Source: Streptomyces sp. NBC_01754
GTDB lineage: Bacteria; Actinomycetota; Actinomycetes; Streptomycetales; Streptomycetaceae
Assembly (NCBI RefSeq): GCF_035918015.1
Contig: NZ_CP109132.1
Coordinates: 1,426,001 to 1,490,000, forward strand
Length of the DNA stretch: 64,000 bases
Direction: 5' to 3'
The translations under genes were made by a program, and so were the position numbers. The notes below the pieces were generated by a model. The model saw nothing but the letters and a program-made list of their open reading frames with translations. It did no database searches and was not told the DNA's origin. Numbering within the stretch: the first letter of the stretch is position 1; each line of letters opens with the position of its first letter. Positions 29,909 to 34,450 of the stretch are shown here, piece by piece.

Positions 29909-31438
29909 ATGGCTCATCTGGCATCCAGACGGACACGCGCACTCACGCTGACCGTCGGACTGGCGCTCACGGCCTCGGTCGGCTTCCTCCCCGGAACCGC
30001 GGCGGCCGCCCCGGCGGACGCGCCGTCGGCCACGGTCCGGACCGACGGCCCGGAGCTGTCGTACGTCGTGAACACGAGCGGCGGTCTCGTCACGGCGAAG
30101 CTGGTGGAGAAGGCGATAGCCAAGGCCGGCGGCACCGTCGTCGCGTCGTACGACCGCATAGGCGTGGTCGTCGTCCACTCGAAGAACCCGGGCTTCGGGC
30201 CGGCGATACGCAAGGCCTGGGGTGTGCGGTCGGCCGGGGCGACCCGTACCAATCCCATCGTCCCGCAGGCCACCAAGGACATCGGGGTCGCGCAGCCCCT
30301 CACCGCCGCGCAGGCCGAGGCGGCGGCCGCGGGCGCGAAGGCCGGCCAGGACGAGCTGGAGCCGCTCCAGTGGGACCTGCCCGCGATCAAGGCGGACAAG
30401 GCGCACGAGAAGTCGCTCGGGAGCAGTCGGGTGACGGTCGGCGTCATCGACACGGGCGTGGACGACACCCACCCGGACCTCGCCCCGAACTTCGACCGCG
30501 GCGCGTCGGTGAACTGCGTGTCCGGGGCACCGGACACCACCGCGGGCGCCTGGCGTCCGGCCGCCGGCGAGAGCGACCACGGCACGCACGTGGCGGGCAC
30601 GATAGCCGCGGCGAAGAACGGCACCGGCATCACCGGGGTCGCGCCCGGGGTGAAGGTGTCGGGCATCAAGGTGTCGAACCCGGACGGATTCTTCTACACC
30701 GAGGCGGTCGTCTGCGGCTTCGTCTGGGCGGCGGAGCACGGCGTCGACGTGACCAACAACAGCTATTACACCGACCCGTGGATGTACAACTGCAAGAACG
30801 ACCCGGACCAGGGCGCCCTGGTCGAGGCGGTCACCCGTGCCTCCCGCTACGCGGAGAGCAGGGGCGTCGTCAACGTCGCCGCGGCGGGCAACTCCGACCA
30901 GGACCTCGCTCTGCGCGCGATCGAGGACACCACCAGCCCCAACGACTCGGCGACGGTGACCCGCACGGTCGACCCGCGTCTGTGCCCCGACATCCCGACG
31001 ATGCTGCCCGGCGTCGTGACGGTCTCGGCGACGGGTGCCAAGGGCCTCAAGTCCTCGTACTCCAACTACGGTCGCGGCGTCATCGACGTGGCGGCCCCCG
31101 GCGGCGACTCCACCGTCTACCAGACGCCCGAGGCACCGGCCACCAACGGTCTGATCCTGTCGACGCTGCCCGGCGGGCAGTTCGGCTACAAGGCCGGTAC
31201 GTCCATGGCGTCCCCGCACGTGGCGGGCGTCGCGGCCCTGATCAAGTCGACCCACCCGTACGCCTCGGCGGCGATGGTGAAGGCGCTGCTGACGCACCAG
31301 GCGGACGCCACGGCGTGCGGCGCTCCGTACGACATCGACGGTGACGGCATCGTCGACGCGGTCTGCCAGGGCGGCAAGAACCTCAACGGCTTCTACGGAG
31401 CCGGTGTCGTGAACGCGCTGAACGCGGTCCGCAAGTAG
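29909..31438 (+). CDS. secreted subtilisin-like serine protease (S8 family)
   Basis: A 509-residue pre-pro-enzyme. A Sec/Tat-like signal peptide (residues 1-35) is followed by a propeptide to about 170 and the peptidase domain with catalytic D181 ('VGVIDTGVDDTHPDL'), H224 ('DHGTHVAGTIAA'), oxyanion N328 ('AAAGNSD') and S432 ('GTSMASPHVAGVAAL'). Cysteines near 203, 269, 295, 359 and in the tail suggest disulfides. It should digest extracellular protein. A 7-bp stem lies in the leader (29858-29879) and a perfect terminator follows the gene. Confidence 0.93.
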   Translation: MAHLASRRTRALTLTVGLALTASVGFLPGTAAAAPADAPSATVRTDGPELSYVVNTSGGLVTAKLVEKAIAKAGGTVVASYDRIGVVVVHSKNPGFGPAIRKAWGVRSAGATRTNPIVPQATKDIGVAQPLTAAQAEAAAAGAKAGQDELEPLQWDLPAIKADKAHEKSLGSSRVTVGVIDTGVDDTHPDLAPNFDRGASVNCVSGAPDTTAGAWRPAAGESDHGTHVAGTIAAAKNGTGITGVAPGVKVSGIKVSNPDGFFYTEAVVCGFVWAAEHGVDVTNNSYYTDPWMYNCKNDPDQGALVEAVTRASRYAESRGVVNVAAAGNSDQDLALRAIEDTTSPNDSATVTRTVDPRLCPDIPTMLPGVVTVSATGAKGLKSSYSNYGRGVIDVAAPGGDSTVYQTPEAPATNGLILSTLPGGQFGYKAGTSMASPHVAGVAALIKSTHPYASAAMVKALLTHQADATACGAPYDIDGDGIVDAVCQGGKNLNGFYGAGVVNALNAVRK

Positions 31439-31448
31439 GTACGCGGCA

Positions 31449-31488
31449 CACGTGAGGGGCCGGGGCCCTGGCCCCGGCCCCTCACGTG
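31449..31488. terminator. terminator after the S8 protease gene
   Basis: A perfect 18-bp stem (31449-31466 with 31471-31488) and 4-nt loop separate the protease from the convergent lysoplasmalogenase gene. Confidence 0.85.
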
Positions 31489-31515
31489 TCCCCGCGGGCG
31501 GGCCCGCCCGCGGTC

Positions 31516-32196
31516 TCAGACCCGGACGCCGCCCTCCGGGTACCCGGAGGCGTCCGCCCCGGAGGAGTCGTCACGGCGCGCGAGCACCCCGGCCGTGAGC
31601 AGGAACTGCGCGGCCGCGTAGGTCAGCATGACCCAGAAGTCGTGGGCGGGCAGCAGCGGCCACTCCGCGATGCCGGTGGCGATGAGCGCGTCGGAGAGCA
31701 GGAAGAGCGCCCCGCCGGCGGCGGCGTACCGGCCGAGGGCCCCGGCCCGCCAGGCCATGGTGGTCAGCAGCAGGCTGTAGCAGGCCAGCGGGGCGCGCAG
31801 CCCGCCCGGCAGGTCCGGCCACATGAGGACGAGGAGGACGGCGAGGGCCGCCCCGTACCCGAGGCCCGCGGGCACGGACGCGCGGGCCCGCCCGAAGATC
31901 CACAGGTAGCAGACGTGGCCCACGGCGAAGGACCCCATCCCGGCCAGGAACGCGGCGTCCGCGTCGGGCATCAGCAGTACGTCCCCGCCCCAGCCGCACA
32001 GCAGCGCGGCGACGAGCAGCCGGGGACCCCCACGGGCCGCCGCGTAGGCGGCGAGCAGCGGCAGCAGCAGCGGTTTGGCGGCCAGGTGGGCGGCGTGCAC
32101 CCCGGCGAGGAGGCCGGCCAGGTCCACCACTGCGACGGCGAGGAAGGCGACGAGCAGCGGCCGGACGAGCCGGGGCGCCCGCGGGCGCGGACTCAT
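31516..32196 (-). CDS. YhhN/TMEM86-family lysoplasmalogenase-like protein
   Basis: A 226-residue integral membrane protein with about eight helices and the YhhN motifs 'LAAKPLLLPLLAAY', 'CGWGGDVLLM' and 'FAVGHVCYLWIFG', the Asp and His residues of which are conserved in TMEM86/YhhN enzymes that hydrolyse the vinyl-ether bond of lysoplasmalogens. The ATG at 32196 overlaps the stop of the hydroxylase gene (ATGA), so the two are translationally coupled. Activity in this organism is inferred from family. Confidence 0.88.
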   Translation of the reverse strand: MSPRPRAPRLVRPLLVAFLAVAVVDLAGLLAGVHAAHLAAKPLLLPLLAAYAAARGGPRLLVAALLCGWGGDVLLMPDADAAFLAGMGSFAVGHVCYLWIFGRARASVPAGLGYGAALAVLLVLMWPDLPGGLRAPLACYSLLLTTMAWRAGALGRYAAAGGALFLLSDALIATGIAEWPLLPAHDFWVMLTYAAAQFLLTAGVLARRDDSSGADASGYPEGGVRV

Positions 32197-33086
32197 CGGG
32201 CCTGCCCGGCGGTGGACCGTGCGGAGGCTTCGGCGGGAACGGACGCGCCGGTGCCCGGGGGCTGCCATCCCGGACCGCGGAAGACCCGCCCGGCCCGCTC
32301 GCTCCAGCTGCCGGCGGCCCGTACGTCGCGGGCGATGGCGGCGTACTCGTGGGTGGCGACGCGGAACGGGTTGTAGGTGGTGATGTTCTTGGTGAGGCCG
32401 TAGACGGGCCGCTCGCCCTCGGCGGCGAAGGACCCGAAGACCCGGTCCCAGAGGATGAGGATGCCGCCGAAGTTCCGGTCGAGGTAGCCGCCCTGCGACG
32501 CGTGGTGCACCCGGTGGTGCGCGGGCGTGTTGAGGACGTACTCGAAGGGACGGGGCAGTGTGCCGATCCGTTCGGTGTGCACCCAGAACTGGTAGACGAG
32601 GTTGGCCGAGGAGCAGAAGGCGAGCGCGGCCGGGTGGACGCCGAGGACGATCAGCGGGAGGTAGAACGGCCAGGAGGTCAGCGAGGTCCAGGGCTGGCGG
32701 AGCGCCGTGGTGAGGTTGAAGTTCCGGCTGGAGTGGTGGACCACGTGGCAGGCCCACAGGATCCGGATCACGTGGTGGCCCCGGTGCGACCAGTAGTAGA
32801 AGAAGTCCTGGGCGAGGAGCATCAGCGGGACCGTCCACCACAGCACGGGGACGCGCAGCGGGGTCAGCTCGTACAGGGCGGTGTAGACCGCCACGACGGG
32901 TATCTTCCACAGCAGGTCGAAGACCAGGCTGCCCAGCCCCATGGTGACGCTGGTGGCGGCGTCCTTGGCCTCGTAGCCGGCCGCCTCCTCGTCCGGGTGA
33001 AGCCGGTAGGACACCATTTCCAGGACGGTCAGCAGGACGAAGGCCGGAATGGACCACAGCACGACATCGGGCAGGTTCGGCTCCAT
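32193..33086 (-). CDS. sterol-desaturase-superfamily hydroxylase, alkylglycerol monooxygenase-like
   Basis: A 297-residue membrane di-iron enzyme. Histidine clusters lie at H101-H105 ('YYWSHRGHH'), H114-H118 ('HVVHHSSRNFNL'), H170 and H190-H195 ('NTPAHHRVHH'). Beyond these shared motifs, 'LTTALRQPW', 'NLVYQFWVHTERI', 'ILILWDRVFGSF' and 'VYGLTKNITTYNP' closely resemble, from memory, vertebrate alkylglycerol monooxygenase (AGMO), which cleaves ether lipids. Four or five helices anchor it. The ATG has no ribosome site; TACGGT ends 6 nt upstream, so it looks leaderless. It overlaps the YhhN gene. Confidence 0.88.
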   Translation of the reverse strand: MEPNLPDVVLWSIPAFVLLTVLEMVSYRLHPDEEAAGYEAKDAATSVTMGLGSLVFDLLWKIPVVAVYTALYELTPLRVPVLWWTVPLMLLAQDFFYYWSHRGHHVIRILWACHVVHHSSRNFNLTTALRQPWTSLTSWPFYLPLIVLGVHPAALAFCSSANLVYQFWVHTERIGTLPRPFEYVLNTPAHHRVHHASQGGYLDRNFGGILILWDRVFGSFAAEGERPVYGLTKNITTYNPFRVATHEYAAIARDVRAAGSWSERAGRVFRGPGWQPPGTGASVPAEASARSTAGQAR

Positions 33087-33092
33087 GCGAGC

Positions 33093-33098
33093 ACCGTA
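33093..33098 (-). promoter_or_regulatory. -10 box for leaderless hydroxylase gene
   Basis: TACGGT on the minus strand ends 6 nt before the ATG at 33086. Confidence 0.5.
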
Positions 33099-33434
33099 GG
33101 GCCGTCGGCGGGCGGAGGATAGACGTTGTTACCGACAAGTATGTGAGACACGGAGTCACCGGTGTTTGGCGGGTTCCGCCAACGGGCGCCCTCGGGGGAT
33201 ACCGGCGTGCCCGGACCGCGGGCGGAACACACGTGCCCGTACGGGTGTTGTCTCACCGTCACCGAAGCGGGGCGCGGACCCGGCCAGGACCTCTCACGCC
33301 CCCAGGCGTCTCCGTCGGCAGGGACCCGGCGAGCAGCCCGGCCGGACCGGCCGGCCTCCCGCCCAACGGCGCGCGGACCCCTGCCGGTTCACGGACCGGG
33401 GACGCCCGGGCAGAACGCTGTCGGTCGAGGCCCG

Positions 33435-33440
33435 TATTCT
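33435..33440 (+). promoter_or_regulatory. -10 box for leaderless exonuclease gene
   Basis: TATTCT ends 8 nt before the ATG at 33449, with no Shine-Dalgarno in the gap. Confidence 0.5.
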
Positions 33441-33448
33441 CTGTGACC

Positions 33449-34450
33449 ATGCTCGACGACCGTCAGACCGCAGCGCCGTGGCCGACCGCCTACCCCCAGG
33501 GGTACGCGGTCGTCGACGTGGAGACCACCGGACTCGCCCGCGACGACCGGATAGTGTCCGCGGCGGTCTACCGTCTGGACGCGCTGGGCGACGTCGAGGA
33601 CCACTGGTACACACTGGTCAACCCCCAGCGGGATCCGGGCCCCGTCTGGATCCACGGGCTGACCAGCGACGCCCTGGAAGGGGCTCCGCTCTTCCCGGAG
33701 GTCGCCGCCCAGCTGTCCGAGCGGCTCGACGGCCGGGTGCTCGTCGCCCACAACGCGGCGTTCGACTGGTCGATGCTCGCCCGGGAGTACGCACGCGCGG
33801 CGGTCGCCGCGCCGGTGCGGCAGCGGCTCTGCACGATCGCCCTCGCCAAGGAGCTCCGGCTTCCGCTGCCCAACCACAAGCTGGAGTCGCTCGCCGCGCA
33901 CTTCGGCGTGGTGCAGCAGCGTGCCCACCACGCCCTGGACGACGCGCGGGTGCTGGCCGAGGCCTTCCGGCCGAGCCTGCACGCGGCGGCCCGGGGCGGG
34001 ATGCGGCTGCCGCTGCTGGAGTGCCGGCCGCTGACGGAGTGGACCGACTCACCGGTCACCCCGCGCGTCGGCCACCGGCCTCCGCGCGGCCAGGAGACCT
34101 GGCGTGCCTCCCGTAAGCGCCCCGCGTGCCCGTACCCGAACCCCGGCCGGTACGAGTCGGACAAACCCCTCATGCAGGGTATGCGGGTGGCGTTCTCCGG
34201 GGACACCTCCGTCGACCGTGAGCTCCTGGAGGACCGCGCCGTGGAGGCCGGTCTGCACGTGGCGACCAGCGTCTCCCGGCTGACGAGCCTGCTCGTCACC
34301 AACGACCCGGACGCGGCCACGTCCAAGACGGTCAAGGCGAGGTCGTTCGGCACCCCGATCCTGGAGGAGAGCGCCTTCACCCATCTGCTGCGGGACGTCG
34401 CCCCGGCCCGGACCCTCGCCGTACCGCCCCCGTCACGGTCATCGGAGTGA
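33449..34450 (+). CDS. DEDDh exonuclease with C-terminal BRCT domain
   Basis: A 333-residue protein. Residues 18-185 form a DnaQ-like 3'-5' exonuclease with metal residues in 'VVDVETTGL' (D, E), 'HNAAFDWSML' (D) and 'HHALDDARVL' (H, D), so the DEDDh set is complete. After a basic linker, residues 245-320 form a BRCT domain ('MRVAFSGDTSVDRELLEDRAVEAG'). This architecture is common in Actinobacteria and suggests a DNA repair or proofreading exonuclease recruited through BRCT; it is not a Pol III epsilon in a core operon. Confidence 0.92.
   Translation: MLDDRQTAAPWPTAYPQGYAVVDVETTGLARDDRIVSAAVYRLDALGDVEDHWYTLVNPQRDPGPVWIHGLTSDALEGAPLFPEVAAQLSERLDGRVLVAHNAAFDWSMLAREYARAAVAAPVRQRLCTIALAKELRLPLPNHKLESLAAHFGVVQQRAHHALDDARVLAEAFRPSLHAAARGGMRLPLLECRPLTEWTDSPVTPRVGHRPPRGQETWRASRKRPACPYPNPGRYESDKPLMQGMRVAFSGDTSVDRELLEDRAVEAGLHVATSVSRLTSLLVTNDPDAATSKTVKARSFGTPILEESAFTHLLRDVAPARTLAVPPPSRSSE

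Follow-up and report, generated by a model that had tools for sequence, protein, structure and literature searches.

A recurrent pairing of an AGMO-group membrane hydroxylase with a YhhN-family protein in Streptomyces and other bacteria suggests a module for ether-lipid cleavage

Two overlapping genes of Streptomyces sp. NBC_01754 raise the question of whether this bacterium carries a dedicated route for taking ether lipids apart. The genes lie in the window analysed here, a continuous stretch of 64,000 nucleotides, and their features are collected in Table 1. A sequence-only reading had taken the upstream product for a relative of vertebrate alkylglycerol monooxygenase (AGMO) and the downstream one for a lysoplasmalogenase, and had proposed that together they could dispose of both kinds of ether lipid. 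The AGMO–YhhN module is real and recurrent, with a function that we infer from the families to which its two members belong.

Table 1. Positions in the window of the gene pair and of the sequence features discussed in the text
Feature	Position	Strand	Basis or remark
AGMO-group membrane hydroxylase	32193..33086	(-)	ATG start, 297 aa, PF04116
YhhN/TMEM86-family protein (putative lysoplasmalogenase)	31516..32196	(-)	226 aa, PF07947
ATGA shared by the stop of the hydroxylase gene and the start of the YhhN gene	32193..32196	(-)	sequence; similar pairs in relatives
Val106 codon, aligning with human AGMO E137	32769..32771	(-)	alignments and sequence
Two strong GC-rich hairpins separating the pair from the converging subtilase gene	31440..31520	(-)	fold energy

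The overlap was correctly described before: bases 32196-32193 read ATGA on the minus strand, and through them the hydroxylase and YhhN genes are presumably coupled in translation. Overlapping or abutting hydroxylase/YhhN pairs recur in relatives of the window pair. The hairpin region downstream folds at -70.3 kcal/mol (z -6.35) and has no T run; transcription of the pair probably ends there. Neither a T-tailed terminator pattern nor a sigma-70-type promoter pattern was found in 31400-33200. Upstream of the pair lies a divergent exonuclease (RNase_T) gene with a C-terminal BRCT domain (33143-34450). Since the pair is thus bounded by the hairpins and the converging subtilase gene on one side and by the divergent exonuclease/BRCT gene on the other, it would seem to form a two-gene unit. 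The host genome of 7.77 Mb contains a single match to PF07947 and three to PF04116.

The hydroxylase matches PF04116 (Pfam, E 2.3e-29) and possesses all eight histidines of the di-iron pattern seen by the sequence-only reading, in the clusters HRGHH (101-105), HVVHH (114-118) and HHRVHH (190-195), the eight being assigned by the family pattern. The likeness to vertebrate AGMO noted by the sequence-only reading holds against database sequences: the search with an AGMO query returned named vertebrate AGMO proteins, and AGMO of the gibbon Nomascus (P0122) aligns with the window hydroxylase at 189 bits, with 38% identity over 315 residues (BLASTP). The two PF04116 paralogs encoded elsewhere in this genome, by contrast, reach no more than 44 and 31 bits against it (phmmer). 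Besides PF04116 and the eight histidines, the window protein shares with AGMO (AGMO/TMEM195, EC 1.14.16.5) the GPGW motif and the essential residues Q162, H201, D233, N235, W243 and D244, all of which are kept (human numbering, from PMC3617469). On the other hand, it is shorter (297 residues against 445), carries Val in place of E137 and Phe in place of the essential Y236, Phe being found there in the vertebrate AGMO rows P0181 and P0241 too, and is devoid of the AGMO C-terminal domain PF24858, which is present in P0122. Scans of four bacterial relatives (L066, L136, L139 and L143) did not call this domain either; many of the long bacterial relatives, a set that includes L066 and L136, align about 100 residues to it. 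The predicted structure of the window hydroxylase (pLDDT 89.3) found no match in the PDB with Foldseek at E 0.001, and PDB sequence searches with both window proteins gave no relevant match. The SCS7 fatty-acid 2-hydroxylase (4zr0, 4zr1) is 16-18% identical to the window hydroxylase, and neither phmmer at E 10 nor Foldseek at E 0.001 recovered it.

PF04116 spans many hydroxylases, and the protein could instead act on some other lipid, such as a fatty acyl chain, an ornithine lipid, or a hopanoid or other terpenoid, with YhhN remodelling or removing a related lysolipid and no ether lipid involved. The missing E137 and C-terminal domain would fit such a role, as would a weak match to the OlsE ornithine-lipid hydroxylase model (NF052566), which at 41.4 bits falls far below the NCBIfam equivalog cut-off of 475. 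To our knowledge, moreover, no ether lipid has been reported from Streptomyces. The kept AGMO residues point the other way, the position of Q162 being occupied by V in the nearest outgroup of the tree described below (L159/L163), and so does the placement of the hydroxylase with AGMO in that tree.

In a quick tree, the outgroups of which were the two same-genome paralogs and other unnamed actinobacterial PF04116 proteins, several of them on long branches, an 89-row group comprising vertebrate AGMO, longer bacterial relatives and short proteins separated with an SH-aLRT of 95, the program warning that long outgroup branches met. A careful tree of 91 rows, built without seven long-branch outgroups of the quick one, sets the AGMO group apart from the nearest outgroup, L159/L163, at 100/100. 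Within this group, a short clade (97/99) unites 40 actinobacterial rows with four from Bacteroidota and Acidobacteriota, and vertebrate AGMO joins this 44-row clade at 90/90. Of the 80 profile-fetched loci considered below, 42 contribute 44 rows to this tree; four PF04116 loci (L167, L168, L170 and L171) have no open reading frame with the motif pattern and are in no tree. Judged by these trees, the window hydroxylase is inside the AGMO group, in its short subclade and off the animal branch. The grouping with AGMO expected by the sequence-only reading is seen against outgroups that are actinobacterial PF04116 proteins rather than named sterol or carotenoid enzymes. Two Bacteroidota loci, L120 (5977-8113) and L138 (3540-5688), have tandem AGMO-group genes, the first long and the second short, and the short member groups with the actinobacterial short clade.

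The sequence-only reading had also asked about the electron donor, and for the window protein the question is a real one: Val106 replaces the glutamate, E137, that binds tetrahydrobiopterin in human AGMO (PMC3617469). It is made sharper by the fact that most sampled non-actinobacterial relatives keep this residue, the position being occupied in 82 bacterial rows from 80 AGMO-profile loci by 71 Glu, 7 Gln, 2 Arg, 1 Gly and 1 Thr. In the tree set, Glu stands there in 46 of 84 bacterial AGMO-group rows (hand count), and the 14-row clade of the window protein has V, M, R or L. Relatives from other Streptomycetaceae genera with an adjacent YhhN gene (L175-L177) keep Glu, which makes an ancestral glutamate, with loss in the lineage of the window protein, the probable history. 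Members of the window protein's clade would draw on an electron donor other than tetrahydrobiopterin. Pterin chemistry is still conceivable, since a pterin-4a-carbinolamine dehydratase is present in the host genome; PF00351 had no match in that genome, and one control gave a match. A 2013 review states that no other protein with the fatty-acid-hydroxylase motif has the pterin glutamate of AGMO (PMC3617469), a statement that does not hold for the bacterial sequences aligned here, if these are counted as non-AGMO. Whether loss of E137 marks YhhN linkage was also considered; the 80-locus set was encouraging, and the idea was abandoned when independent pairs on the tree gave it no support (median p 1).

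As the sequence-only reading had it, the downstream product belongs to the TMEM86/YhhN family: it matches PF07947 (Pfam) with E 5.5e-36 and 124.4 bits against a curated cut-off of 25.6, and it keeps K41, G71, D72, H94, G161, S168, D169 and Y193. These were paired, by order and motif rather than by an alignment to TMEM86A, with the conserved residues mutated in TMEM86A/B, namely K43, G81, D82, H104, G182, S189, D190 and Y213 of TMEM86A (PMC11994398). Each of the eight is kept in at least 61 of 70 aligned YhhN sequences from our own-profile collection. Family members from Mycobacterium tuberculosis (Mtb) and Legionella are reported to be lysoplasmalogenases (PMC9052158; PMC5095149). In PF07947 and the eight residues, the window YhhN resembles these lysoplasmalogenases (TMEM86A/B, Legionella YhhN and Mtb Rv1401); it differs from them in adjoining an AGMO-type gene, and the available excerpts of the Mtb and TMEM86 papers mention no such partner.

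How constant is the association? Within Streptomycetaceae, the hydroxylase was found in 100 of 150 genomes (E 1e-20). YhhN was searched for in 80 of these 150, a hand-picked set in which 63 genomes have the hydroxylase, and was found in 58; both genes are present in 56 of the 80, the hydroxylase only in 7 (in G203 as a partial match), YhhN only in 2 and neither in 15. Same-strand adjacency was recorded in 52 of the 56 two-gene genomes (a hand tally from coordinates in this hand-picked subset), the two genes lying apart in G162, G238, G241 and G330. G215, G235 and G239 have one gene of the pair, hydroxylase or YhhN, in partial or split form beside its partner, which suggests decay (or else contig ends) in part of the Streptomycetaceae. 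In a class sample of 197 genomes, again tallied by hand, 12 of the 20 same-genus genomes have both genes (11 adjacent) and 8 have neither. Among the other families of this sample, 23 genomes have both, adjacent in 2 (G373 and G475, from two families) and apart in 21, while 10 have the hydroxylase alone and 21 have YhhN alone; each gene, therefore, can work without the other. A phylum sample of 197 genomes, many of them drafts and with any PF04116 match counted, contains 15 genomes outside Streptomycetaceae with both genes, none shown adjacent; in several of these, which are drafts, the two genes lie on separate contigs.

Such a scatter of both genes in actinobacteria, mostly unlinked outside Streptomycetaceae, is what would be expected if they were mere neighbours co-travelling in Streptomyces, with no joint function. 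It is harder to reconcile that idea with the overlapping or abutting pairs across Streptomycetaceae and the joint absence from 8 of 20 same-genus genomes, and the situation in other phyla makes it highly unlikely. The loci examined there are the best 80 of at least 593 confirmed relatives of animal AGMO obtained by a profile search of genome contigs. YhhN is present in 16 of the 80, abutting or fused in 15, and 64 have no YhhN in the stretch of contig examined; among the 69 loci whose flanks reach 1.5 kb or more on each side, it is present in 14. It lies directly downstream in ten (L064, L066-L069, L071, L073, L075, L089 and L128), 2 kb downstream of the AGMO relative in L070, and directly upstream in three (L106, which shows only the end of YhhN in that frame, L127 and L141), and is fused to the AGMO part in L136 and L139; several of the YhhN-bearing loci are close relatives (Pedobacter). 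The downstream position is that of Bacteroidota, the upstream one that of Rhodanobacteraceae and Oxalobacteraceae, and the fusion that of Comamonadaceae. In a control, YhhN was absent within about 1.5 kb on each side of 13 non-AGMO PF04116 loci, which also speaks against mere neighbourhood, as do the different gene orders; the fusions by themselves already make it improbable.

On the tree, the linkage state changes at least ten times (78 labelled rows of 91, the labelling omitting the vertebrate rows, of which there are five, the two of the outgroup, and six near contig ends or with a doubtful partner), and one old linkage with many losses may be an alternative history. Since gene orders differ and fusion occurs, selection for co-production can be proposed; linkage or fusion in unrelated bacteria argues that the hydroxylase and YhhN probably work together. 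The conserved adjacency on which the sequence-only reading had staked its proposal thus extends beyond Streptomyces, fusions included. In the open-access literature searched, no paper on AGMO–YhhN linkage was found, and as far as that literature goes the module is undescribed.

The Comamonadaceae fusions match the window pair in their two domains and in the order of these, and differ from it in being one polypeptide with a longer AGMO part, in which E137 is kept in both L136 and L139. Both Pfam domains occur in each of the best 120 of 7980 proteins that match the Hydrogenophaga fusion; the organisms named among them belong to Hydrogenophaga, Ramlibacter and Polaromonas, besides one Burkholderiales bacterium. 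The fusions are annotated as 'lysoplasmalogenase family protein' (NCBI) and in some cases as 'alkylglycerol monooxygenase' (JGI). Those at L136:5776-7698 (Hydrogenophaga) and L139:5950-7779 (Acidovorax) are candidates for structure work. A model of fusion P0244, intended for domain geometry, was discarded, as its AGMO half had a mean pLDDT of 73.5 with many blocks below 60. An apparent Streptomyces fusion, P0004 (439 aa, one member), was likewise set aside: its YhhN part stops early, and it is probably a product of a frameshift or of gene calling. The repeated occurrence of fusion to YhhN, a family of which the tested members are reported to hydrolyse vinyl ethers, also counts against action on some other, non-ether lipid, an explanation that we regard as unlikely, though still a serious contender.

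We consider it moderately probable that the pair constitutes a two-gene membrane module that breaks the sn-1 ether bonds of alkyl and vinyl-ether lysolipids, its reactions and substrates being those predicted from the two families. In this scheme, an AGMO-type di-iron oxygenase would hydroxylate O-alkyl glycerols or lyso-alkyl-phospholipids at the carbon beside the ether oxygen, and the resulting hemiacetal would break down to a fatty aldehyde and a glycerol derivative. The same products are given for AGMO in the 2013 review, which left open whether the breakdown is spontaneous or enzyme-aided (PMC3617469). YhhN, for its part, would hydrate the vinyl ether of lysoplasmalogens to yield an aldehyde and a glycerophospho-base. 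AGMO is reported to require a free sn-2 hydroxyl and to reject vinyl ethers (PMC3617469), and YhhN to depend on a vinyl ether together with a free sn-2 hydroxyl, with the same aldehyde and glycerophospho-base as products (PMC9052158). Because the substrates of the two families are complementary and both have a free sn-2 hydroxyl, the pair would cover both ether classes. The substrates in Streptomyces would more likely be external (lipids of animals, protists or other bacteria, converted to lyso forms by phospholipases) than its own, and their supply is plausible, since a phospholipase A1 of Streptomyces converts plasmalogens into lysoplasmalogens (PMC5095149).

The earlier proposal that the pair disposes of both kinds of ether lipid is upheld in part: placement in the AGMO group and the linkage favour it, the missing E137 and C-terminal domain weigh against it, and the activity stays putative. 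We think that the Streptomyces pair works like AGMO plus a lysoplasmalogenase, yet that its hydroxylase is not AGMO in the strict sense.

The hydroxylase superfamily contains desaturases as well as hydroxylases, and the window protein might accordingly be an O-alkyl desaturase making lyso-vinyl-ether lipids that YhhN then hydrolyses, the two acting in sequence. The products would exactly match the substrates of YhhN, and the tight linkage and fusion fit a sequential pair. However, AGMO, the closest characterised relative found, is a monooxygenase, and the plasmanyl desaturase of animals is a member of a different family, PF10520; we hold a desaturase to be quite improbable. A search for this family (CarF/PEDS1) gave no match in the host genome, and the control likewise had none, so the result is uninformative.

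Returning to the hydroxylase as an ether-cleaving oxygenase, two loci show neighbours of possible relevance. In Dyella japonica (L127:3609-7236), genes for a glycerophosphodiester phosphodiesterase (GDPD), YhhN and the AGMO relative stand in a row on one strand, and in a Flavobacteriales metagenome-assembled genome (MAG; L070:3104-8601) the same is true of an aldehyde dehydrogenase, the AGMO relative, a subtilase and YhhN. GDPD and aldehyde dehydrogenase would consume the two products of the module; the cases are anecdotal, one locus each, the neighbour Pfam scans having covered 20 chosen open reading frames of 118 listed. Product-using neighbours as a rule were rejected, single-sequence searches over the loci collected finding each of the two enzymes only in its starting locus.

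A bolder idea, which we put forward as speculation and rate as doubtful, is that YhhN/TMEM86 proteins may be a partner so far missed for AGMO-type oxygenases. Because alkyl-ether hydroxylation and vinyl-ether hydration should share one hemiacetal, YhhN might take up the AGMO product and cleave it, in addition to acting on lysoplasmalogens. The pair or fusion would then be a complete 'etherase', with the Streptomyces clade running on a reductant other than tetrahydrobiopterin. If this were true, human TMEM86 and AGMO might cooperate likewise.

The 2013 review gives animals as the occurrence of AGMO and describes the enzyme as having resisted purification up to that time (PMC3617469). AGMO has so far been treated as an animal enzyme; here, most sampled non-actinobacterial relatives (71 of 82 rows) carry its pterin glutamate, and in several lineages an AGMO-type enzyme is tied to YhhN, the other family known to break ether bonds. 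This suggests an aerobic bacterial pathway for ether-lipid breakdown. The bacterial proteins and natural fusions are offered as material for such an enzyme, and whether the AGMO hemiacetal breaks down spontaneously or with the aid of an enzyme becomes a testable question.
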